64,000 nucleotides of DNA, from assembly GCA_949752745.1 (NCBI GenBank), contig OX457027.1, positions 55,742,053 through 55,806,052 of the forward strand, in the 5' to 3' direction. The notes beneath the pieces were generated by a model, which was not told the origin of the DNA, searched no databases, and worked only from the letters and a program-made list of their open reading frames with translations. The stretch comes from Protula sp. h YS-2021. Taxonomy: Eukaryota; Annelida; Polychaeta; Sabellida; Serpulidae. This document shows positions 7,761 to 64,000 of this stretch, in pieces (within the stretch, counting starts at the first letter, position 1; each line of letters opens with the position of its first letter). The position numbers and the translations under genes were made by a program.

Positions 7761-7930
7761 TAATTCAAATGTAAAAAAAACAGGTGCAAAAAATTGCGCA
7801 AATAAAAAAGTATCGAAACTAAATATTTAAATATATATGTGTATGATCACACTTTATTATTATTATTATTATTACTATCACTACTACTATTACTACTACT
7901 ACTTCTACTACTACTACTACTACTATTGGC
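7761..7930 (+). repeat. Dispersed 100-bp module followed by an ATT/ACT microsatellite
   Basis: The stretch 7761-7860 (containing GCGCAAATAAAAAAGTATCG and TGTGTATGATCACACTTTA) is the reverse complement of 25670-25764. In both places the module is followed, in its own orientation, by a long (ATT)n tract. A repeated unit with a microsatellite always on the same side indicates a mobile element carrying its own microsatellite. Confidence 0.65.
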
Positions 7931-7959
7931 ATTATTAGTGCATTATTATTGCTGTTATT

Positions 7960-9054
7960 ATTGGAGTTATTGTTGCATGCGCAGTTCAGTAAACTTCGAT
8001 GATAATACGTCCAACAGCTTTGAAATTCTTAACGGTGTGAAGCAGGGGTGCGTTACCGTCGCAATTCTGTTTTGCATATTCTTCTCCTTATTACTCCACT
8101 TTGCGTTTCACTCTGTCGAGGAAGGTATCCATGTATACACGAGATCAAACGGCATATTGTACAGTGCTTGTAGACTTCGGACAAAGACTAAACGCAGACT
8201 CGTCATGATACAGGAACTCCTGTTTGCGGACGATGCCGCTCTACTGGCACACAGCGAACAGAAACTGCAGCACTTGATGGACCACCTCGCCATTGCTTGT
8301 GACAAGTTCGGTCTAACAACCAGCGTGAAGAAAACGGTTATCGTGGCACAAGGTGCCCAGCAGGCTCCTGTAATTACACTGAACAACGTTCTCCTAGAAG
8401 TTGTGCACAGTTTCTGCTACCTTGGATCAACCGTCACAAACTTAGTTTCGATGAACGACGAAATAAACATACGCATAGGCAAAGCCGCAACCACCTTTGG
8501 TCGTCTTACGAAGCGTGCCTGGAACAACCCAAAACTTACGACAAGAACGAAGATGTGCATATACAGAGCGTGCGTTATTAGTACTTTGCTCTATGTCAGC
8601 GAATCATGGACTTCCTACCTCTACCAAGAATGGAAACTAATTTTCACGAGATGCCTGCGTCGTATACTTCACAGAACCTGGCAGGACCGTGTACCAAGCG
8701 CGGTTATACTATAGAAGGCCGAACTCCCAAGTGTTTCTGCATTGCTGAAACGGAGACGAATACGCTGGCCTCTCCATGTTCGCCGTATGGATGACGGCCG
8801 TATCCCTAAGGATCTACTTTATGGTAAATAGCAGATGCCAAAAGGCCAAAAGGACGTCCAAGACTCAGGTTTAAAGACGCGTGCAAACGGTACATGAAGG
8901 CATTTGGGATCTCATGGGAGAGCTGGGAGACCCGTGCAGACAGCAGGTCCACGTGGAAACGCGACATTTGTGATGGCGTGAGGCTTCATGATGACAAGTG
9001 GATTAGCGAACTTAATGCCCGCAGACTGAAGAAGAAACCCAAACAGAATTAAGC
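7960..9054 (+). pseudogene. 3' end of a non-LTR retrotransposon (LINE) reverse transcriptase, broken
   Basis: The translation shows LINE RT signatures in order: NGVKQGCV (motif B region), then LLFADDAALLAHSE with the FADD catalytic box (near 8218-8250), then the thumb region ending near RRILHRTWQDRVPS. In-frame homology continues past a stop at 8712 (LHVRRMDDGRIPKDLLYG) and then, after a further stop and a frame change, into GRPRLRFKDACKRYMKAF, which is the usual LINE C-terminal tail, ending near 9050. The endonuclease and upstream RT motifs are missing, as in ordinary 5'-truncated insertions. It sits between two ATT/ACT microsatellite tracts, suggesting insertion into, or expansion beside, a microsatellite. 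Inactive; clade not assigned. Confidence 0.88.
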
Positions 9055-22607: not shown

Positions 22608-40577
<17,970 letters not shown>

Positions 40578-42599: not shown

Positions 42600-43035
42600 T
42601 CGGGGGTGTAATCGGACGCTGTTCTGGTGAAGCTGTGATGGAGGGTGTAATCGGACTCTGTTCTGGTGAAGCCCTGATGGATGGTGTAACCGGATGCTGT
42701 TCTGGTGAAGCCCTGATGGAGGGTGTAACCGGACGCTGTTCTGGTGAAGCCCTGATGGAGGGCGTAACCGGACGCTGTTCTGGTGAAGCCCTGATGGAGG
42801 GTGTAACCGGACGCTGTTCTGGTGAAGCCCTGATGGAGGGCGTAACCGGACGCTGTTCTGGTGAAGCCCTGGTGGAGGGTGTAACCGGACGCTGTTCTGG
42901 TGAAGCCCTGGTGGAGGGTGTAACCGGACGCTGTTCTGGTGAAGCCCTGGTGGAGGGTGTAACCGGACGCTGTTCTGGTGAAGCCCTGATGGAGGGTGTA
43001 ACCGGATGCTGTCCTAGTGAAATATGTGAGGGTAT
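42600..43035 (+). repeat. 39-bp minisatellite, 11 units, open in one frame
   Basis: Units of GTGAAGCCCTGATGGAGGGT plus GTAACCGGACGCTGTTCTG are tandemly repeated 11 times with few substitutions. Because 39 is divisible by 3, one frame (about 42494-43039) stays open and would give 13-residue units GVTGRCSGEAL(M/V)E. There is no splice context, signal peptide or domain, so coding function is unproven. Neighbouring near-unit fragments (43080-43150) show decay. Confidence 0.85.
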
Positions 43036-51390: not shown

Positions 51391-51573
51391 GTTTCGCTAC
51401 ACCTTGTCTGGAAGGTGCTCGCAAACAGTCTTGCCCCCGAAGCGAATAGCACAGTCCCCGCAATAATCGTGGGGATCGTCCTTGAAATGCGTGCCCAGTT
51501 TTTCATCACTGCAAGCGAATACAAAGAATTTTCTTTAATGCCATTTTGTTTTGGTTTTTCATTGAAAATTTTG

Positions 51574-51646
51574 CACCCTGAGTGAGGAGCGAACTCACGA
51601 CATTGAGATTATGAGACTCAAGCGCTGCCTACTACGCCATCGAGGC
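51574..51646 (-). tRNA. tRNA-Met(CAT)-like gene or pseudogene
   Basis: A 73-nt minus-strand cloverleaf: acceptor GCCTCGA with TCAGGGT (one mismatch, two wobbles), D arm GCGT/GCGC, anticodon arm TGAGT-CTCATAA-TCTCA with anticodon CAT, and a perfect T arm GTGAG-TTCGCTC-CTCAC. It closely follows elongator tRNA-Met. The acceptor mismatch and C in the T loop (TTCGCTC instead of TTCGAxC) suggest a decayed copy or SINE head; a promoter B box (GTTCG...C) is largely kept. No poly-T terminator was seen immediately downstream. Confidence 0.65.
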
Positions 51647-51649
51647 ACG

Positions 51650-52480
51650 TTTTTTCATTGCATATTATCGATTTGGCGTGTAGTATCACATATCAGTGTG
51701 TGTTCTGCAGCCTCTGCATCGCGCTATTGCAGGCTTTAGCGTGCAGTCTGTGATTTGACTGTGCTACCCGTGGTAGCCTGTGTGCTCCCAGGGAGTAACT
51801 CTTTTGTAACTCGTGAGTATCTCGGAGTGCGGCTGCGGTAGCATAAAGCACGGGAAAGCTACCACTTGCAAAAAGTTAGCCAAAACTTTTCTCCTAGGTA
51901 GATAGCAGCTATACTGTCTTGACCATGAATTAGGAAGTTGACGTCATAGGAAATCCACGGTGTCTCTGTCATCTTGCCGCCTTGTGGATGCCTCCCCGCC
52001 AGAATTAAAACTGCTTATGTCTCCGTGTTGAGGGTTAAAAAAAGCCCAAAGTTGCGAGTATCTACAAGAACTAAGGAGAGCCCTTTAACATTCGTGAAGC
52101 TGGAGAACTTGAAAATTTACAATTTTGGTTTGCCCACGTGTTGAGGGCGCCACCGCGTTACTCACAACCAAAAACAGCGCAAACATCTAGAAACAGTCAA
52201 AATTCGAGGTTTATCTGTTCGAATTTCCCTGTAGCAAAACAAAGTCTATAGTTGGACTGAAGATGTGCCTGAAAGGGTATACTAGCGACACAAACAACCA
52301 GGCTTCCCACCGCAGAGTGTTGAAACCGCAGTTGGCCAATTAAACTTTGCTGCGCCGCTCCTCCTGGATGGGATTCTCCCACACTTCACTTCATTGATCT
52401 TCGAGACTCCCAGCAACTCTCTGCAATGTTCATTCGTCCATCAGACCTGGAAGGGCCCTCAGAAATTAAAAGCTTTCACT
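51650..52480. other. No gene seen
   Basis: No convincing frame, repeat or RNA gene. Confidence 0.4.
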
Positions 52481-52481
52481 A

Positions 52482-53258
52482 ATGCTACAAACTGTGTTTC
52501 TTCACAGGCGTAAACATGGGATTACCCTTGATATACTTGGAGCTAACATAACATGTTATACTCCAGTGAAATTAATTCTATTTTTTACATCTCGAATGTG
52601 TTACCGGCACAGAAAAGATAGGATGATACTTTTCAAAGCATCGGGTCGATCGACCTGGAGAAGGAAAGGGGAAAGATCGACAGCAGAAGTAGCCCCAAAC
52701 TCCCCTGAAACCACACAGCTGACTCATCCCGTGATTTCTGATGCTCGGGAGAGTCAGATGTGCAAAGTCTGCAGATCCACCGAACATCAGACGCTAACAG
52801 AAAGATGTCCGATGCGCCTAACCACACCATTAACCGACGTAACACCATTTAAAGGCAAAGACGACGCCCTAAGTAATTTCTACCCATGCCAAGTGACAGT
52901 GTTTGAACGCAGATTCCGGTCCTCTGAGCACGCGTACCAGTTCTACGGCCGAGACGGGCTTGCAGAGAATATATGTAAGCAGGCGACAGCGTGTGCTACA
53001 AAGAGACTAGGGAAGAGATTACCTGCTGAGCAATCCTGGGATAATGAGAAGCTTGACGTCATGAGGGAAATAATTAGAGCGAAAGAAAGAGACGTTCCCG
53101 CATATAGACGTAAACTCCTAGAGGCAAGAACTGTAATCGCGGAGGCAGTCCCAGGAGACATCTACTGGTCTAGTGGGCTTTCCAAAGAGCAGATTGACTG
53201 GGCCAGGATGAGCCATTGGCCGGGGAAAACGTCATGGGAACCTTACACATGGAATTAA
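52482..53258 (+). CDS. Zinc-knuckle plus NADAR-domain protein, probably retroelement-derived, C-terminus frameshifted
   Basis: A single-exon frame of 258 codons. Residues about 104-123 hold a knuckle CKVCRSTEHQTLTERCP (Cx2C...H...C). Residues about 133-250 match the NADAR (YbiA-like, DUF1768) fold: FKGKDDALSNFYPC, SSEHAYQFYGRDGL, LPAEQSWDNEKLDVMREII and GDIYWSSGLSKEQI. NADAR proteins act on ADP-ribose or riboflavin-type N-glycosides. The last residues in this frame do not fit, but after GGGGAAAA near 53223 another frame gives NVMGTLHMELRDKI up to a stop at 53306-53308, the expected NADAR end: a one-base indel. Lack of introns, the knuckle and surrounding retroelements suggest a retroelement ORF. 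The true start may be downstream of 52482, since 52597-52655 is a repeat shared with 48.3 kb. Confidence 0.75.
   Translation: MLQTVFLHRRKHGITLDILGANITCYTPVKLILFFTSRMCYRHRKDRMILFKASGRSTWRRKGERSTAEVAPNSPETTQLTHPVISDARESQMCKVCRSTEHQTLTERCPMRLTTPLTDVTPFKGKDDALSNFYPCQVTVFERRFRSSEHAYQFYGRDGLAENICKQATACATKRLGKRLPAEQSWDNEKLDVMREIIRAKERDVPAYRRKLLEARTVIAEAVPGDIYWSSGLSKEQIDWARMSHWPGKTSWEPYTWN
52597..52655 (+). repeat. Repeat arm inside the NADAR frame
   Basis: The plus-strand partner of 48295-48345, coding CYRHRKDRMILFKASGRS in the NADAR frame. It suggests that the two copies derive from the 5' part of the same element type. Confidence 0.7.
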
Positions 53259-54490: not shown

Positions 54491-55740
54491 ACCATAAACA
54501 ACTTGTACTTTCTTTTTTCAAGTGGGTCATTCCGCTATCTATCGGGTCTATGCCCTCACTTGCTGCCCTTCACGATTCCTGCTACCACTCCTGCCCGCAG
54601 CGATAATCAGGTACATTATATTACATACCAGCAAGGTCTTAATAGCGAAATACGTCGATCTGTTTCCCTGGACGCATTGCCCTGCATCGAGTGCTCTCGC
54701 TGTCGCGCCTACCAGTATTGTGAACTTTCCTATATCTTCAAAAAGGTACAATTAGAAAGATTTTCAGTTGTACTTCTGGTGTCTCATGGACTTTTATGCA
54801 TATAGCATAATATAGAAAGCTGGAAAATCTAAAACAAAAATGAACGAAATATGCAAACTGCGAAACCGTTTCATCACCCACAATTGGTTGGCCTCATCTG
54901 AGCATAGCTTTTACATCACAGACTGGTCTAAATTTTACCAAAAGAACGAGCATACAAATTATCATTAAATCATTATCAACAAATTATCATGTAATAAAAA
55001 ATAATACTTCGTGGCATGGTGTCAAACTTCATGGCATGGAGCCAGACTTTGTTTTTACTGCCCTCTACAATTTAAAGGCACTTGGGACGTGCCAACCGTC
55101 CACCGCCGTGGATTTCCCGTTGCTCCCATGCCATGAAGTATTATTATAATATCCACCTCCCCCCTACTCTCTCTCAAAATTGTAATGCTATAAGTGTTAT
55201 CAAAGGTGTCGCTGTTATTTGTTTTGTTGTTCTGTGATCTTGTTCCGGTCAGACGCGGAGGCCAAGAAATCTACCACACAAGATACCATATCCTTGATTT
55301 GAGTGAACATCCAGGAAATGAGAGCCCCGGATGTATGACCATCTCGGGGAGTGGTTGCGGAAATCTGGATTCCCGATGGATTTTATCCAAGGGCTCTTAA
55401 GAAATGGGAGGAAATAACGACCGGATTCAACAACAATGATTTCATTTCTGAATCCTTAATAATTACATTATATATTACAGCAGAATATTATAAATAAATG
55501 AAGGATAAATATGTTATCAGAGGCTGTATATTTCATTGGATCAGGTCAAATGCCTTTAAATAAAAAGTGATCAATGTCAAGCGCATACAAATCAAGACAA
55601 AAGTGACTTGGCCTGATTTATTATATGTTGCTTCAGAGTCCGTATTATTGCAATACACCATATTGCCGCTTCTATAAACATCACGTCATGCTACTTAAAC
55701 GTAGCAGCCCGGATAACAACACAGCCTGTCCTTCATTGAG
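54491..55740. other. Upstream region of SLC34 gene 2
   Basis: No gene recognised. A small foldback lies at 55001-55145. Confidence 0.45.
55001..55145. mobile_element. 145-bp foldback (MITE-like)
   Basis: The left end ATAATACTTCGTGGCATGG (55001-55019) and right end CCATGCCATGAAGTATTAT (55127-55145) are inverse with one mismatch, and an extra internal CTTCATGGCATGGAGCC lies at 55028. It sits about 610 bp upstream of the gene 2 TATA box. Confidence 0.6.
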
Positions 55741-55854: not shown

Positions 55855-55860
55855 ATGCCT
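55855..55860 (+). CDS. SLC34A: SLC34 gene 2, exon 1: Met-Pro mini coding exon
   Basis: ATGCCT is followed by the donor GTGAGA. Phase 0 fits the next acceptor at 56011. AACAAAATG is an acceptable start context, and the TATA box is 98 bp upstream. A start exon coding only two residues explains why the start of gene 1 is so hard to find. Confidence 0.75.
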
Positions 55861-58800
55861 GTGAGAAACCTTTTCTTTTCAAATTTAAGTCCTGTTTAAT
55901 TCTTTTGTAAATGTAATTCATACAGTAGAGAAGTGTTATATCTATCGTTTAATTCCAGACAGAGTAAAAAAGGTTAGTTAAAGAAACTAAAAAGTGCTTA
56001 TTTATTTTTAGAACACAAACAGGACTTCGAACGAAAGTGTAGAAAGCAACAATGTGTGCCAGCCATTGGACAAAGAAGAAGAAAGTGTAGTGATGGACGG
56101 TGACAATGAGAAGAGTGATCCTTCCTTAGCCTTCAGTGCTTGTAGCGAAAAGCTGGAGGACAAAGCCCGCATGATACAAGAGCTGAGCGGCTTGGCAGTA
56201 GACGCCGACAGCTATGGTGATATAGTGAAGGTATCACCGCCGCCCTCATACGTGGAAGAGGACACTGTTGTGGAGATAGAGGATGTCGCCGAAAACGAAG
56301 AGGGCACGACACAGGCACGGGAAGAGGAGGACCCCTGGTCTTTGGTTATTACGCCGAGCACCGGTAAACCATGGAAAGGTACGGCTTTCATAACCGTTAG
56401 TTCAGTATATCCCTATATACTACACCATTCACTCATGCTACCCCCCCCCCGCCCTTTCCGCCGGCCTAGGATGTCTTTCCCCGCAAAAGGCATCCCAAGT
56501 AAATGTTGAGAAGGTTAATACTATTTTTAAAAATTGCTATTGTCGACAATAAATATGTCGTTTAAAAGCAGCGGGCATAAACAAAACATTCTGGGGGGGG
56601 GGGGGAGGGGGGAGGGAGAATAAGTACATCGCTCACTTTAATTGAAACTACACTTTCGAGGTCATATCAAAGGGAAATGCCAACATCTTCTTTGAAAGTA
56701 CTCTGAGTAGATAAATAGTATCTAATGTGTATGAAGACCGATGGACAGTTTATGGAACTACCAGCTCAGTCAAAATGTACATTGCTTGTGTTATTTTGTA
56801 GAATTTCAAGAGCCATTTCTGATTTCTACCCTCAGCCCAAAAAAATACTTAAATACAACTAGGGATGAAAACATGTTTATAACAGATCACACACCCTATG
56901 GCGTTTTACTTGAACTGAAGACAAATGCAGTCGGTCCTTACTCTTTTTCCCAACCAAATCTTTCAAAACAAAACCATCAAAAAGAGCATACATAAGTGGG
57001 TTTTAAATAAGTAATGATACCTGTAACCGACTTAAGAATCTTAAAATATGGTCCCCTGCAATTCTTTAGTGTTGGCCGAAATTTAGTAAAAATTTCTGAA
57101 AAAATGTTGAATCCATATTTAATACCAGGTCAGTGATAACTTGTTGGTGACATTTTCTTGAAAAATATACCCAAACCGCTCAAAAATCTACCCAAAGAGC
57201 TCAAAAATCTACCTGAACCGCTCAATAATCTACCCCAATCGCGCAAATTTGTCTTGTTCTCAGATTGTAAGACATAAATCCGACGTATTTTTTTTTTTTG
57301 GGGGGGGTGATTTTTCAGGATTTGTTAAGTAGTAAGGAAAGTTTCCGCGCAAACTCGAAAAATCGCTCCGAAAAATGCCTTATTTGAAAAGACAGCTAGC
57401 TGAGGCACAACTTCGGAGTTTTACCCAGTTCTTCATAAAACTTTCCTCGGGCTGAAGGATGTTTGCACGAAGAAAATGTAAACTGTTGTTCAAACACTCC
57501 TACTAACACTTAAACAAGGACAAAAACACGCTCTATCACTGCGTCCTTGGTATCAGCCTTGAACCTGCGGCTAAGAGCCAGGGTCGCGACCAATGAAAAG
57601 CTAAAAAAACACAGGTATCCCACCCTTTACCTGCCTGATGTAACGCCACTCTAAAATGCGAACGCGGGACTCTAGTGAGATTATCTTCCGGGGATGTGGG
57701 AGGCAGGGGGGGTACTTGCGTTCAAATTGGTTACTTTGCGTGTCCACGACTTTTTAAAACAAGCTAAAGGCGGAGTGACAAGCTTGTTGAAAAAAATACT
57801 CCCTCTTTGTACCAAACGTGGACACCTGTGTAAATTTTATCCCTCAAACGCAGTGTCAGATTGATAAAAAGCTTGGGTAGAACGCAATTATCGAAAGTCA
57901 CATTGTGAGCTGTGTGTGCACAATTTTTGAATTCCCCCTTTTGGACGCGTAGTGTATTCTAAAGAACCCTTTTTACGGTAAACGCGGAGTACTGGATGAA
58001 AAGAAATTTTCACTCTATATAGATCGCGTCTGGCCCCAAAATTACCCCCCCCCCCCCGACTTTCTGACCTTTTTCTTTTTTGGACAAGCATGGTACCAAA
58101 TATGTAGATCATCCCACATTTAAGCGGCTGATAGCCCTGCTTTGTTGACTGTGGCTGTCACGTGACGGTGTGATAGCGCAATGTTCGTGACCCTGTCTTC
58201 AGCCTTTGAGAACACCTTTTAAAAGGTATCCGTGTTGACAAAAATTATCTTGTCTCAATGCAAGGACATGATTTATTTCAGGACGTTTATTTTTAAGTCA
58301 TTTGGGGGAAAGTTTACTTACTTTTATAAAACTGTGGATTATTTAATGCGAAAAAGGGGCTCTAGTTGCTCCAAGCGAGTTGTGTGGCGGGTCGGGGGGG
58401 GGGGGGGGGCACTTGGCATCATATGTGTTACCATGCGCGTCCAGAGACTGGAGAACATTTCGTTAAAAATCGGGGAAATTTGCCTTTGTTGGTGGGATGG
58501 TTTTACTCGCAGCGTCAAAGAACTATCATTACACAGCCAGCAGTGGAATTTTTTCCACTTAATGATATCTCGCGTATTTTAGAAAGCGACCGTTAAAGAC
58601 TAGAACGTTTACGCTAATCGGGTAGTCGATATTTACCGATATTTGCCGATATGTAATCGCATATATTTGCTTGAATCTGTACATTGCTGCTGTTTGTTTG
58701 CGCTTTCGTGTTTTTTAGTTTGTTAAGTTGTTTCTGTCCCACAATGTTTTATGCATAAACTCTTGTCAAAGAAAAGGCTCTTGTCACAAAATCCTATAAA

Positions 58801-61800
58801 AAATATCACCAAATTATTGGCAAATGATTTCCAATATTCTTAATTTCATTCACATTTTTGTGATTGGGTTTTACATGTACAAGAAGCTGCGATTTTAACC
58901 GAAAAATTGGTTCAGCCAAAAGTTAACGGATCGTACATTAAATACAAGCTCTGTCTTGTTCACATGGCAGTCAAATGACTTATAAAAATGAAATTGCTGG
59001 CAACTTCTTCCCTGAAAAAATCGTATATATGAAGAACCGATCACAGCAAACAGTTTTAAAATAATAGCTGACCCGAAATGACCTACATTTTGACCTCAGT
59101 ACCTTTGCGCCGTAGTAGACAAGTTCTTACCTGCAAAAGCATTTTGTATACTTCAAGGGTCAATTTCCTATTCTACCAAGGATCCTTTCTCCATGTCTTT
59201 GTGGCATCAGCACTTTCGAAGTAGCCGTTTTCGTTTCGTTCTTTCAGAGCTGAGTGTCCTGGAGAAGATTCAACGAGTGTGCATAGTTACCGTGAAAGTG
59301 ATCATCATCTTGTTGCTCCTCTATCTCTTCATCTGCTCTCTTGATCTCCTTGGTGCTGCTTTTCAACTAGTTGGAGGTATTATTCAATATTTTTTTTATT
59401 CTGTGCCGTTTCAAAGTCACTCACAACCCGAAGACAATTAGGTTGCTAACTTGAACTACCTCGGAACACTGGAGAAAAAAAAACCACGACGAGTATTTGA
59501 TAAATGTAAACATTAGACAATTTGCTAGTATTTCAGGAGCTAGTCTTTCGACCAGTGAGGTTTGTGGGGAAGAGGTTTCACTGGAAAGTCGTTAGTTCAA
59601 AATTCAAAAGAAGTTGATGTGTTTTTGCGCATTAAGCAGAAAAGCGCTGGAGTAAAAGTTTAAAAAAGTTCACTGAAAATACTTGAGATACCCCAAACCG
59701 GGTACAAATTCTGTACCCGCTGGGCTCCCACTGCCAGCCTTCTTGAAACAAACTCCTCTTCTACTATCCTAAACACATATGCGAAGCGCAACCCAGCAAC
59801 TTTATGTTTAAAGGAAGGACTGCGGGTGAAGCCTTTAAGAGCCCCCTGTTGCAAAATCCATTAGTTGGATTAATCATCGGCATATGGGTGACAGTGATTC
59901 TACAGAGCTCCTCCACCACAACCAGTATCGTCGTTGCCATGGTGGCAGCCAACAGTAAGTCCCTATCCGGTTCCATTTTTTATTCAAATATTACGATGGT
60001 GGCTGAAAGTCCTCAAATCTTACGCTAGTAGATTAGTTTCTGGCCATTGAGTGGCGAAGGGAATCTTACTGATAATTGGTTAATTGGTTTATCCACACAT
60101 TTGGGCCGGCGACTTTTGGGCCAGAGACATTCAAGCGAGATGTAGAAAGTGTGACATGTGGGCCACTTCAAAAATTGCTCAAAGCTCAACTGTATAATTT
60201 TTGTTGGACCTAAATTGGCTCACTAAACCCTTTTTTATAATATCCTAAAACCTGGAGAATGACAGGGGTATTAAATGACAATTGCGATTAGAACATGGAC
60301 TGTTTTTGAAGATCACGCGTTTTCTCCAACAACAGGAGTTAATCGGCAAAAGCTACTTCTCTATATACGACAGTTACTGGTACATTATGACTTTGGAGGG
60401 ACTTCTAAAAATGCGCGATAGAAGGATAGAGGGGAGGGGGAGGGTGATCTGTATTTTACGACAATGTTTGATGCATAATGACACTGAAATATAAATTTTC
60501 AAAATTCATTAGTCCTGTTCCTTGACTGGAGCAATTTAGAAAAGGAAAATGAAAAAAAATGTTAAAGAACCATCTGGGCAAAATGTCACCACCCAAAGGT
60601 CTCTGGTCCAAATGCCATGGATTCGATCATTTCTTGAGAAAAAAAACTTTGAAGTGTGCAGCCAAGGGGCATATTTTGTTTTAGAATTTAGAAGTCGTGT
60701 TATCTAAGTTGTTTTATCATTTTAACTGGCCACCTAATATGATTCAATCTAACAGCTGTATATTTTGATCTTTCTTTGACCAGTTATTTCAGTGGAACAG
60801 GCTATCTACATCATTATGGGCTCAAACATTGGAACCTCCTTCACGAGTTCCCTGGTAGCACTTGGGCAAGTGGCAGAACGCAACCAATTTCGGAGGGCCT
60901 TTGCCGGGGCCATCGTTCTTTACATGTTCAACCTTTTGACTGTGATCGTCCTCTTACCATTGGAATGGTTTACTGGTTATTTGTACCATGTAACCAAAGC
61001 TATTGTCGACAGTATGGACCTCATAAACGCTGCTCAGGAGGGCGATGACGAACCAAAATTTTTATCGGTGATAACTGATCCGTTTATCAGCTTAATCATT
61101 CAGGTATGTTATTTATTTATTTAACTGAGCACATTGCCAAAACCCAGTAAACATTGTGACGCTGGTTTTTGGTTTATTGTGGAACTCGAAACAACGTCGA
61201 TCTGCCAACCTTTGATAGACGTTGATTATCCAGCATCTTATCAACGTTGCGAACTGGTTGTAAATGGAAATTGCATTGACGTCTGGAAAATAACAATCTT
61301 ATTACCACCTAGACGTTAACAGTTGATGTTTACCTAGCGTTGATTTTCCGACGTCTATTCAACGCTGCGTCAACGACACTGAGTAAATGTTGATGTATGT
61401 CGCGAGCAATCAACAAAATTACAACTAAATTTAATGTGATCTGTTTGAGGTGACGTCAGAATGTTTATTGGAAAAGAAGTAACGTGTAAAACGCCCCCGA
61501 CCAAATGGGAGGGGCGTTCTAAGAACCGAACGAAATACTGTGAAGTATTTTTTGGGGGAGGGGGAGAAAAAGAGAGGGAGTGACAGAGTCAGAAACAGAG
61601 AAAGAATTTTTTTCATCTCTCTTTCTAGTACTTATTCCGGATTATCATGTATTTTCTGTTTTATTTGTTTCAAATTTAGGTTGACAAAGGCGTTGTCACG
61701 GCAATTGCTGAAGAAAGCTTTGAACAGAAAAGACCATTAACGAAATATCTATGCGAGGAGGTCGATCTTCCCAACTACACAGATTATCCATTAGGTAATA

Positions 61801-63271
61801 AATGCTGGTTAAAACGTCGATGGTCACAATGTCGTCTGCAAAAAGATCGACGGATAAAACGCCGACGGTCAAAACGTCGATAAATGTAAAAACAGATAAA
61901 GCGTTGACCAATTAATGTTGACTAAAATGAAGTAGACAGAGCTGTTAATAAACGTTATTAATTGACCATAATCAGTTCTACAATTGATAAATCTGTGACG
62001 TGGTCAAATCTAATTATTTATCAACGCTCTCCGCCACAAAAAATAAACAATGCTAATAAAATGCTAAACACTAAATGAGCTGGGACCAAAAACAGATCAC
62101 CAACTTAAAGACCTTAACAAAATAAGGCTTTCAGTGCGTCTAGATGTCTGCGAAAGAAGCTTGACGCAGCATTACCTTAAATAAACGTTACATTACTTTT
62201 TAAATATGGAGTGCATTTAAGCAGCACATCTCATTGGCTTCTTAATTCAATTGAACTTCTGAAGGCAACACGATTTCTGGTAAAACCCTCCACCAGCCAC
62301 TGGAGTTAAGTCGTTGACCAGAAGGCACACTTTCCAATAATACTCTTTGAGGATGACGATCGACGTTTTATCTGCTTTTAAAGTTGTCGGCGTTTTATCT
62401 GTCGACGTTTTCACAGTCGGTGTTTTGACTACGTTTTGACCGTCAACGTTTTGTCAGAATACTATAGGTAATATGTAGTATTTTGCAAAAGGACTACTGG
62501 CCAGGAATATGTTTCTTTATTTTCTCCATTTAATTATTTATAGTAAAGTTAACTGCTGAATTATTTTACTTGTGCCTATTTTGGCACAGTCATACCCAGC
62601 TTTCTCCTGCCGGTTTTAGGGATATAAACACTTTAGTACTACACTTATCTGAAAATACACCTCAATGCCACATGGTTTATGCTTGAATGCATTTTCACTG
62701 AAATAAACTTTGAAAAATGGCTAAATTTTGCATTCTGGCTCAGTTTAAGCTCCACTTATTGTATGGTGCATTACCGCGGGTGTCATCTTTCCTGGTGTGC
62801 TGCGCATTTTTTGTTGTTATTCCACCATTTCATGTTTTGAATGTTGTTCTTATTGTTGCTGCTCAAATGTTGTGAAGAAATATTGTTTAAAAGCCACAAG
62901 CATGATAACAGAGACATAAATTCCAAAAATATTGAGTTTGTCGCAAAAATAATAATAACAACAAACGCCCGTTCTTTAACTGCCGTTTCATGTCATCCGA
63001 CAAAAACCCTTCAAGGACGCTTTGAAATCAAATACGAAACATTTGATTGATGCAAATTGTGTTGTACTAGGAACGGATGTAACACAGGAAGAGGAATACA
63101 TAACAGTTCGCGACAGCAAAAGCCACCCGCTGCTCTGGGCCTATTCAGAAGAAATAGAGAACGTAACCCTTACTGATAATGGCACACAATCAGATCTCAT
63201 TACCAACGACACAGCCGTGACGAGATTCTCATACATGTTGCCCGACTTTGATGATCCGGGAACACAGGCCT
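55855..63271 (+). CDS. SLC34A: SLC34 gene 2: type II Na+/phosphate cotransporter paralogue (3' end beyond window)
   Basis: Coding exons 55855-55860, 56012-56378, 59248-59376, 59814-59954, 60784-61103, 61680-61794 and 63071-63271 join in frame for 426 codons plus one base. The terminal exon with repeat 2 is not in the window. Domain order matches gene 1: acidic N-terminus with PPPSY and DPWSL, helix 1 (FICSLDLLGAAFQLVGG), QSSST at residues 198-202, GSNIGTS, then the extracellular loop with several N-glycosylation sequons. All phases equal those of gene 1, so it arose by gene duplication. Key oddity: where gene 1 and vertebrate NaPi-IIa/b have VHD, it has VLY (Tyr 261), and FNW is FNL. Transport is therefore probably altered, for example in sodium stoichiometry or substrate. 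Introns 3 and 4 are much shorter than in gene 1. Confidence 0.93.
56012..56378 (+). CDS. SLC34A: SLC34 gene 2, exon 2: N-terminal cytoplasmic segment
   Basis: Acceptor TTATTTTTAG, donor G|GTACGG; phases 0/1. It starts NTNRTSNESVESNN and is strongly acidic; it holds VSPPPSYVEEDTVVEIED (PPPSY at residues 78-82), EEEDPWSLV and ends GKPWK. Longer than gene 1 exon 2 (367 versus 175 bp), with the extra length before PPPSY. No in-frame stop and acceptable codon use. Confidence 0.9.
57165..57245 (+). repeat. Short tandem repeat of about 22 bp
   Basis: Three to four units of ACCGCTCAAAAATCTACCC type with substitutions. Confidence 0.7.
58390..58600 (+). repeat. Poly-G-linked dispersed repeat, second copy
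   Basis: After a long G run (58396-58409) comes CACTTGGCATCATATGTGTT then ACCATGCGCGTCC, resembling 26330-26420. Confidence 0.45.
59248..59376 (+). CDS. SLC34A: SLC34 gene 2, exon 3: first membrane segment
   Basis: Acceptor CGTTCTTTCAG, donor G|GTATTA; 129 bp, phases 1/1. It reads ELSVLEKIQRVCIVTVKVI, then ILLLLYLFICSLDLLGAAF and QLVGG. The SLDLLxxAFQLVGG ending is closer to vertebrate NaPi-IIb (SLDILSSAFQLVGG) than gene 1 is. Confidence 0.95.
59814..59954 (+). CDS. SLC34A: SLC34 gene 2, exon 4: QSSST signature
   Basis: The acceptor is an atypical, pyrimidine-poor TATGTTTAAAG; the donor is A|GTAAGT. It reads GRTAGEAFKSPLLQNPLVG, then IWVTVILQSSSTTTSIVVA and MVAAN. The acceptor was fixed by alignment with gene 1 exon 4 and by phase 1. 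The weak acceptor could cause exon skipping, but skipping keeps the frame (141 bp). Confidence 0.92.
60100..60620. repeat. Foldback repeat related to 4480-5425
   Basis: GGGCCGGCGACTTTTGGGCC and AGAGACATT on the left, and GGCAAAATGTCACCACCC then AAAGGTCTCTGGTCC on the right, are diverged inverted ends of the AGACATTTTGGGC family, within SLC34 gene 2 intron 4. Confidence 0.45.
60784..61103 (+). CDS. SLC34A: SLC34 gene 2, exon 5: core of repeat 1 with VLY replacing VHD
   Basis: Acceptor TTTGACCAG, donor CAG|GTATGT; phases 1/0. It encodes SVEQAIYIIMGSNIGTS, FTSSLVALGQVAERNQF, RRAFAGAIVLYMFNLL and VIVLLPLEWFTGYLYHV. Compared with gene 1: GAN to GSN, SVTNT to SFTSS, ATVHD to AIVLY, FNW to FNL. The exon is otherwise intact, with good splice sites and no stop, so the changes look like protein divergence and not decay. 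Confidence 0.95.
61140..61400. repeat. ACGTT/GACGTC repeat in SLC34 gene 2 intron 5
   Basis: AACAACGTCGATCTGCCAAC, GATAGACGTTGATTATCC, TATCAACGTTGCGAAC, TAGACGTTAACAGTTG and CCGACGTCTATTCAACGCTG. Same word set as the other family members. Confidence 0.7.
61680..61794 (+). CDS. SLC34A: SLC34 gene 2, exon 6: extracellular loop
   Basis: Acceptor TTCAAATTTAG, donor G|GTAATA; 115 bp, phases 0/1 as in gene 1. It reads VDKGVVTAIAEESFEQKRP then LTKYLCEEVDLPNYTDYPL. It keeps the Cys found in gene 1 (KYLCE) and adds an NYT sequon. Confidence 0.94.
61811..62462. mobile_element. Foldback element of about 650 bp in SLC34 gene 2 intron 6
   Basis: The left end (61811-61915) has AAAACGTCGATGGTC, GATAAAACGCCGACGG and AAACAGATAAAGCGTTGACC. 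The right end (62359-62460) is the inverse (GACGTTTTATCTGC, GTCGGCGTTTTATCTG, GACCGTCAACGTTTTGTC). Long inverted subterminal repeats without coding capacity. Confidence 0.7.
63071..63271 (+). CDS. SLC34A: SLC34 gene 2, exon 7: extracellular loop
   Basis: Acceptor TGTTGTACTAG, donor T|GTGAGT; phases 1/1. It encodes GTDVTQEEEYITVRDSKSHP, LLWAYSEEIENVTLTDNGT, SDLITNDTAVTRFSYMLP and DFDDPGTQA, with three N-glycosylation sequons (NVT, NGT, NDT). WAY(D/S)E(K/E)IE and the FxYxLPxFDD end align with gene 1 exon 7. The split Cys codon awaits the missing last exon. Confidence 0.93.
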
Positions 63272-63990: not shown

Positions 63991-64000
63991 GTTCAAAGTA

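Follow-up and report, generated by a model that had tools for sequence, protein, structure and literature searches.

A second SLC34 gene with tyrosine in place of the Na1 aspartate: a predicted paralogue with a remodelled sodium site

The locus described here raises the question of what an SLC34 (NaPi-II, sodium-phosphate cotransporter) gene encodes when Tyr has taken the place of the Asp on which charge coupling in this family depends. SLC34 proteins consist of two inverted repeats, and NaPi-IIa and NaPi-IIb (SLC34A1 and SLC34A2) are electrogenic, with a 3:1 stoichiometry. This Asp is near-invariant in the animals sampled; the natural case of loss for which the physiology is known is vertebrate NaPi-IIc, which has Gly instead. 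The window analyzed, the whole stretch of 64 kb, contains two SLC34 genes, both on the + strand. At the same site, gene 1 reads ATVHDVFNW (codons GTT CAC GAC for VHD) and gene 2 reads AIVLYMFNL (GTT CTT TAC for VLY), so that both the translations and the codons confirm the loss of Asp noted in the preliminary description. Residues are numbered throughout as in human NaPi-IIa, set by alignment from the VHD motif (VHD = 222-224).

Gene 2 was traced through seven coding exons (55855-63271), GT-AG spliced in frame and encoding 426 stop-free amino acids; this openness refers to the first seven exons, as the second-repeat exon falls past base 64000 (Table 1). The exon carrying the substitution, the fifth of the seven, has exact borders (acceptor gaccag before TTATTT, donor gtatgt after ATTCAG) and an open frame, in agreement with its earlier description as intact and free of stops and frameshifts. 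Gene 1 lies upstream of gene 2, extends from 22608 to 40577 and ends with a stop codon, and the five exons that run from its TM1 exon to its loop exon match those of gene 2 in length modulo 3. A tblastn search of the window, for which all gene 2 exons and the final exon of gene 1 served as queries, found no further SLC34 locus (other hits, E >= 0.4).

Table 1. Positions of the SLC34 exons and of other features within the window
Feature	Positions	Strand	Remarks
Gene 1, N-terminal exon	22608..22782	+	Ends ...DPWALTEPENKGKPWK; left border is a proposed acceptor (tacag before AACGGC); upstream exon(s) undefined
Gene 1, TM1 exon	25179..25307	+
Gene 1, exon carrying first QSSS motif	31549..31692	+
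Gene 1, exon homologous to the focal exon	36975..37282	+	VHD and TNT intact
Gene 1, exon homologous to gene 2 61680-61794	37467..37581	+
Gene 1, loop exon homologous to gene 2 63071-63271	38615..38797	+
Gene 1, last exon	39499..40577	+	Second repeat (QSSSVFTS) and stop; 1079 bases including stop
Gene 2, proposed first coding exon	55855..55860	+	ATG CCT, then GT donor; start codon inferred solely from frame and splice sites
Gene 2, N-terminal exon	56012..56378	+	C-terminal end of translation ...DPWSLVITPSTGKPWK
Gene 2, TM1 exon	59248..59376	+	Splice/frame model and tblastn of window
Gene 2, exon with first QSSS motif	59814..59954	+	Motif unchanged (ILQSSSTTTSIVV)
Gene 2, focal exon	60784..61103	+	First repeat, TM2b to TM3; Tyr at Asp224 equivalent
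Gene 2, exon 3' of focal exon	61680..61794	+	VDKGVVTAIAEE...
Gene 2, loop exon	63071..63271	+	Last inside window
ORF with reverse-transcriptase domain	7806-8714	+	302 aa; PF00078, E=1.4e-7
Tandem array	42604-43021		10.7 copies of a 39-base unit, 95% matches; several overlapping open frames on both strands
tRNA-Met (anticodon CAT)	51573-51646	-	Rfam, 46.3 bits
Stop-to-stop ORF with NADAR domain	52470-53258	+	262 aa; PF08719, E=4.3e-13; between both SLC34 genes
Inverted repeat	55000-55145		20-nt arms, 95% complementary, 106 nt between

Among the other features of the window, the tandem array is a minisatellite and not a gene, because the array itself leaves overlapping frames open on both strands. 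The inverted repeat looks like a MITE-type element, and the ORF with the reverse-transcriptase domain is probably a retroelement remnant.

The membership of gene 2 in the SLC34/NaPi-II family is indicated by its match to the family model TIGR01013, to which the focal exon aligned with E=1.8e-28 and 99.7 bits; this is lower than the whole-protein cut-off of the model (306) because the exon is a fragment of 107 amino acids. The exon also matched PF02690 (2.5e-6, 28 bits, slightly below the gathering score of 29.1 bits) and the PDB chains 9z60_A and 9z64_A (“Solute carrier family 34 member 2a”, E=1e-29), and the first repeat of gene 2 carries QSSSTTTS, the first-repeat motif of SLC34. With the 426-amino-acid part of gene 2, 1286 homologous proteins were found at E<=0.001 (7996 candidates scored), and the best 120 of these, full-length proteins, were compared in detail. 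As they were ranked by likeness to gene 2, are rich in vertebrate 2B proteins and have no row named 2C, the frequencies given below are not a census. Gene 1 is 47% identical to its best match among them.

Gene 2 departs from these best 120 of 1286 homologues by V197F, N199S, T200S, T221I, H223L, D224Y and W228L. Position 224 is Asp in 119 of them and Val in one (P0022 of Montipora capricornis), with Tyr in none, so that Tyr here is indeed as unusual as the preliminary description had supposed. The other positions are nearly as uniform in the same 120 proteins: V 118 and I 2 at 197, N 118 and S 2 at 199, T 119 and I 1 at 200, T 116 and V 4 at 221, H 119 and L 1 at 223, and W 111 at 228. FTSS for VTNT, which had also been pointed out, is thus made up of real departures. 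GSN for GAN, listed as notable at the same time, was dropped as a signal, as the middle residue varies ordinarily among the 120 (A 107, S 7, T 6) and is uninformative. D209E was likewise rejected as a second lesion, with Glu occurring in 20 of the 120 homologues and in five of the six Asp-bearing cnidarian rows.

To what extent these departures are confined to one region can be seen from the near-invariant columns, defined as those conserved at >=95% in the 34 homologues with less than 75% identity (86 of the 120 being left out as redundant). Gene 2 keeps 53 of the 59 such columns (among 239) and departs at 199, 200, 221, 223, 224 and 275, which amounts to five of 18 within 195-229 compared to one of 41 elsewhere (Fisher p=0.008, for an interval picked after the exon had been inspected). 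Gene 1 departs at none of the 18 and at five of the 41. Because the departures of gene 2 concentrate in 195-229, its predicted product is, to judge from sequence, an otherwise well-kept SLC34 protein with a single rebuilt patch.

The same patch was found in other sequences. A search with the focal exon yielded 18 exon-scale ORFs, the closest two of which (P0121 and P0122) carry LY, and a profile of three such exons gave 146 matches. Among the best 120 of these, position 224 is Asp in 112, Tyr in seven and Ala in one, a share of Tyr that is enriched by a profile built from Tyr exons. Six relatives (P0121, P0122, P0139, P0140, P0141 and P0174) share the wider LY.FN[L/F] pattern of gene 2 and are 61-73% identical to it (P0174 across 57 columns only); they are single-exon ORFs, unproven as genes, and the number of species behind them may be small. 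Gene 2 and these six, referred to as the Tyr set, were picked by positions 223-224, the other positions playing no part in the selection, and were compared with 104 other exon rows (from a total of 122 rows, made up of the 120 matches and genes 1 and 2, P0220, P0212 and nine gappy rows were left out). The residues of the Tyr set occur in <=10% of the 104 other rows at 199 (S 7), 200 (S 5, G 2), 221 (M 5, I 2), 223 (L 7), 224 (Y 7), 228 (L 5, F 2) and loop position 266; all of these except the loop position are around the Na1 site. Position 220 is Ser in five of the seven rows and Ala in gene 2 and P0141. While Thr200 and Asp224 are lost throughout the set, Gln206, Asp/Glu209, Arg/Lys210 and Asn227 are retained.

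Variants of the motif were also seen outside the Tyr set. His223 is replaced by Leu with Asp224 retained (VLD or ILD) in P0144, P0145, P0155, P0199 and P0120 (Branchiostoma), and these rows possibly represent an intermediate step. The fragment P0212, a match to the exon profile, reads VLA and is missing the Asp, and the seventh match with Tyr, a 111-aa fragment from the springtail Orchesella cincta (P0220), reads GATVLYMFNW, with the ordinary Thr221 and Trp228.

In a trimmed tree of 50 rows and 224 columns, gene 2 is sister to gene 1 (98/81), and the pair groups with proteins of Capitella, an annelid, and Paramacrobiotus, a tardigrade (96/84; with Capitella alone, 88/46), which we do not read as a taxonomic placement. 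A full-length version gave a false long branch, because gene 2 lacks its tail and the tail was misaligned. In a tree of 62 exon rows with an unsettled bootstrap, the seven rows of the Tyr set form one clade (91/86), gene 1 joins P0123, P0143, P0144 and P0147 (100/97), and P0220 stands beside the Tyr set (84/83) on the longest branch of the tree (3.21). When the 12 diagnostic columns were dropped and the long-branch rows P0220, P0212, P0134 and P0171 left out, the gene-1 set was recovered (100/96), as was the gene-1 set jointly with the Tyr set (83/77), and the branch of the Tyr set had about zero length (70/0). These groupings fit a duplication common to the sampled relatives of both genes, which they do not prove. 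The trimmed tree, none of whose rows was named SLC34A3, places gene 2 closest to gene 1, so that its loss of Asp224 probably occurred independently of that in NaPi-IIc.

The zero-length branch would agree with repeated gains of Tyr, in which case the seven rows would not be one lineage, and P0220, judged by its residues, may possibly be such a second, separate gain. We consider repeated gain quite unlikely for the Tyr set itself: the seven rows are united when all columns are used, they share four further positions that are rare elsewhere (199, 200, 221 and 228), and even P0220 is placed next to them in the all-column tree. A different explanation of the unusual residues, and one made conceivable by the 3' end of gene 2 lying outside the window, is that gene 2 is decaying or that its changes are errors of sequencing or assembly. 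This we hold to be very improbable, and it was rejected as the source of the changes, as identical residues recur in six relatives that have diverged to the extent given above, frame and splice sites are intact over all seven exons, and most near-invariant columns are retained. In addition, genes 1 and 2 differ at 63 first, 28 second and 122 third codon positions over 182 codons. Since dS is saturated (dN 0.316), selection can be read solely from these counts, which show constraint on the pair of genes and not on gene 2 alone; the six relatives are the better evidence of constraint, and they strengthen the earlier opinion that decay is unlikely. Because Tyr and its neighbours recur, the changes cluster at Na1, and the two genes are sisters, gene 2 looks like a maintained, remodelled paralogue rather than a decaying copy.

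How might such a paralogue work? In the refined model of NaPi-IIa presented in a review (PMC6325988), the Na1 sodium is coordinated by Thr200, Gln206, Asp209 and Asn227, with Ser447 also implicated, and Asp224 forms a salt bridge with Arg210 near Na1 without being a coordinating residue. The same source reports that D224G alone turns NaPi-IIa electroneutral and abolishes its voltage dependence. Because this one replacement is enough, gene 2 is naturally read as altered in its ion coupling, as had been proposed at the outset. The associated statement, that replacing the Asp removes a sodium site and makes transport electroneutral, stands in its second part, given D224G in NaPi-IIa; its first part holds for gene 2 as an inference, since the Asp is not coordinating in that model. 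Our main reading, to which we assign a probability of roughly 55%, is that gene 2 encodes a working SLC34 paralogue with a rebuilt Na1 site, functioning as an electroneutral cotransporter of 2 Na+ with 1 HPO4(2-). In this sister of gene 1, the region of the first-repeat Na1 site has changed from Asp224 to Tyr, His223 to Leu, Thr221 to Ile (Met in most relatives), Thr200 to Ser (or Gly), Asn199 to Ser and Trp228 to Leu (or Phe); the remaining Na1 residues encoded in the window (Gln206, Asp/Glu209 and Asn227) are retained, together with Arg/Lys210 and the QSSS motif of the first repeat. The first, voltage-dependent sodium would no longer be bound at Na1, and two Na+ would be carried with HPO4(2-) without net charge, as in vertebrate NaPi-IIc.

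It is also conceivable that gene 2 is still electrogenic. The first sodium site would then remain usable, though perhaps weaker, by means of the Tyr224 hydroxyl, Glu209 and Gln206, and the voltage dependence or the affinity for sodium would be altered. The retention of Gln206, Asn227, Arg/Lys210 and an acidic residue at 209 in gene 2 and its six relatives would agree with this, as would the position of Asp224 beside Na1 and outside the four coordinating residues in the model described in PMC6325988. However, the effect of D224G by itself on voltage dependence in NaPi-IIa (PMC6325988), together with the change in gene 2 of Thr200, another residue with a Na1 phenotype, makes this unlikely. Slightly less probable is a carrier that moves another substrate or is coupled to another ion, or else a protein that senses phosphate and transports little. 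Such a function would account for a coordinated set of six positions that exceeds the simple loss of Asp, and S192L and G196R, as described in PMC6825645, show that the region tolerates little in NaPi-IIc. Against it, the first-repeat QSSS does not differ from that of other SLC34 proteins, and the near-invariant columns are mostly kept; a changed substrate, also suggested in the preliminary description, is without support in the readable part of the gene. The main caveat to the electroneutral reading is a weak or silent carrier. By analogy with human NaPi-IIc, a residue as bulky as Tyr might just as well result in poor transport, because in that protein G196R (which we place at position 224 by counting from SSG) does not leave the ER, and S192L, present at the membrane, has severely lowered transport (PMC6825645).

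A comparison of the two inverted repeats, both blocks of which are present in 118 of 121 proteins, suggests how the electroneutral site might have been built. In repeat 2, the match of Asp224 is F in 73 and L in 43 of 117 proteins, and the matches of 224, 221, 228 and 199 are mostly F/L, L/F, I/L and A/G/S, respectively. The Y, I, L and S of gene 2 would thus shift repeat 1 toward the small or hydrophobic character of repeat 2 at four of the six positions, as if the asymmetric ion site had been flattened by these four replacements. H223L and T200S/G are off this pattern, as repeat 2 keeps His and has Ile at the match of T200, and a full symmetrisation of the two repeats was rejected, the pattern fitting four of the six positions only. 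Tentatively, and with somewhat less than an even chance, gene 2 would then belong to an old invertebrate SLC34 subfamily in which electroneutrality evolved independently of NaPi-IIc, by way of a hydrophobic/aromatic Na1 cluster like that of repeat 2, and which has been kept beside an electrogenic sister.

A second SLC34 copy is in itself not new, because several invertebrates have more than one SLC34 record among the best 120 of the 1286 homologues; the discussion in PMC6656865 states that the tested species other than chicken and mammals express a single NaPi-IIb-type gene. What is new is the missing Na1 Asp rather than the extra copy. No paper on an invertebrate SLC34 paralogue or on Tyr at position 224 was found by title in the open-access literature, which covers few subscription journals. 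If our reading is correct, gene 2 would represent a second, conserved and differently built solution, the ion stoichiometry of SLC34 would be retunable more than once, and one animal would possess a high-gradient phosphate carrier alongside a low-cost one. The six linked positions would be a natural set for dissecting the Na1 site.

Compared with known systems, gene 2 resembles vertebrate NaPi-IIc (SLC34A3) in being an SLC34 member without Asp at position 224. However, the two are built differently: NaPi-IIc has Gly at 224 (SSG as opposed to AAD), and gene 2 has Tyr together with H223L, T221I, T200S, N199S and W228L. The SSG/AAD motif that marks NaPi-IIc spans the same segment as the patch in gene 2 (PMC6825645); at the three positions of SSG (Ser218, Ser220 and Gly224), gene 2 has Ala, Ala and Tyr, while the Ser220 seen in five of the seven Tyr-set rows corresponds, by its offset, to the second Ser of this motif. 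NaPi-IIa and NaPi-IIb are like gene 2 in overall sequence, the first QSSS motif, Gln206, the acidic residue at 209, Arg210 and Asn227, but, like gene 1, they have VHD and TNT intact, and gene 2 has Tyr where electrogenic members of this type have Asp. The SLC34 protein P0022 of Montipora capricornis (database name transport protein 2B-like) also has Asp224 replaced (VHV) and carries Ser199; unlike gene 2, it retains His223, Thr200 and Trp228, and it is a single case that clusters with coral proteins.
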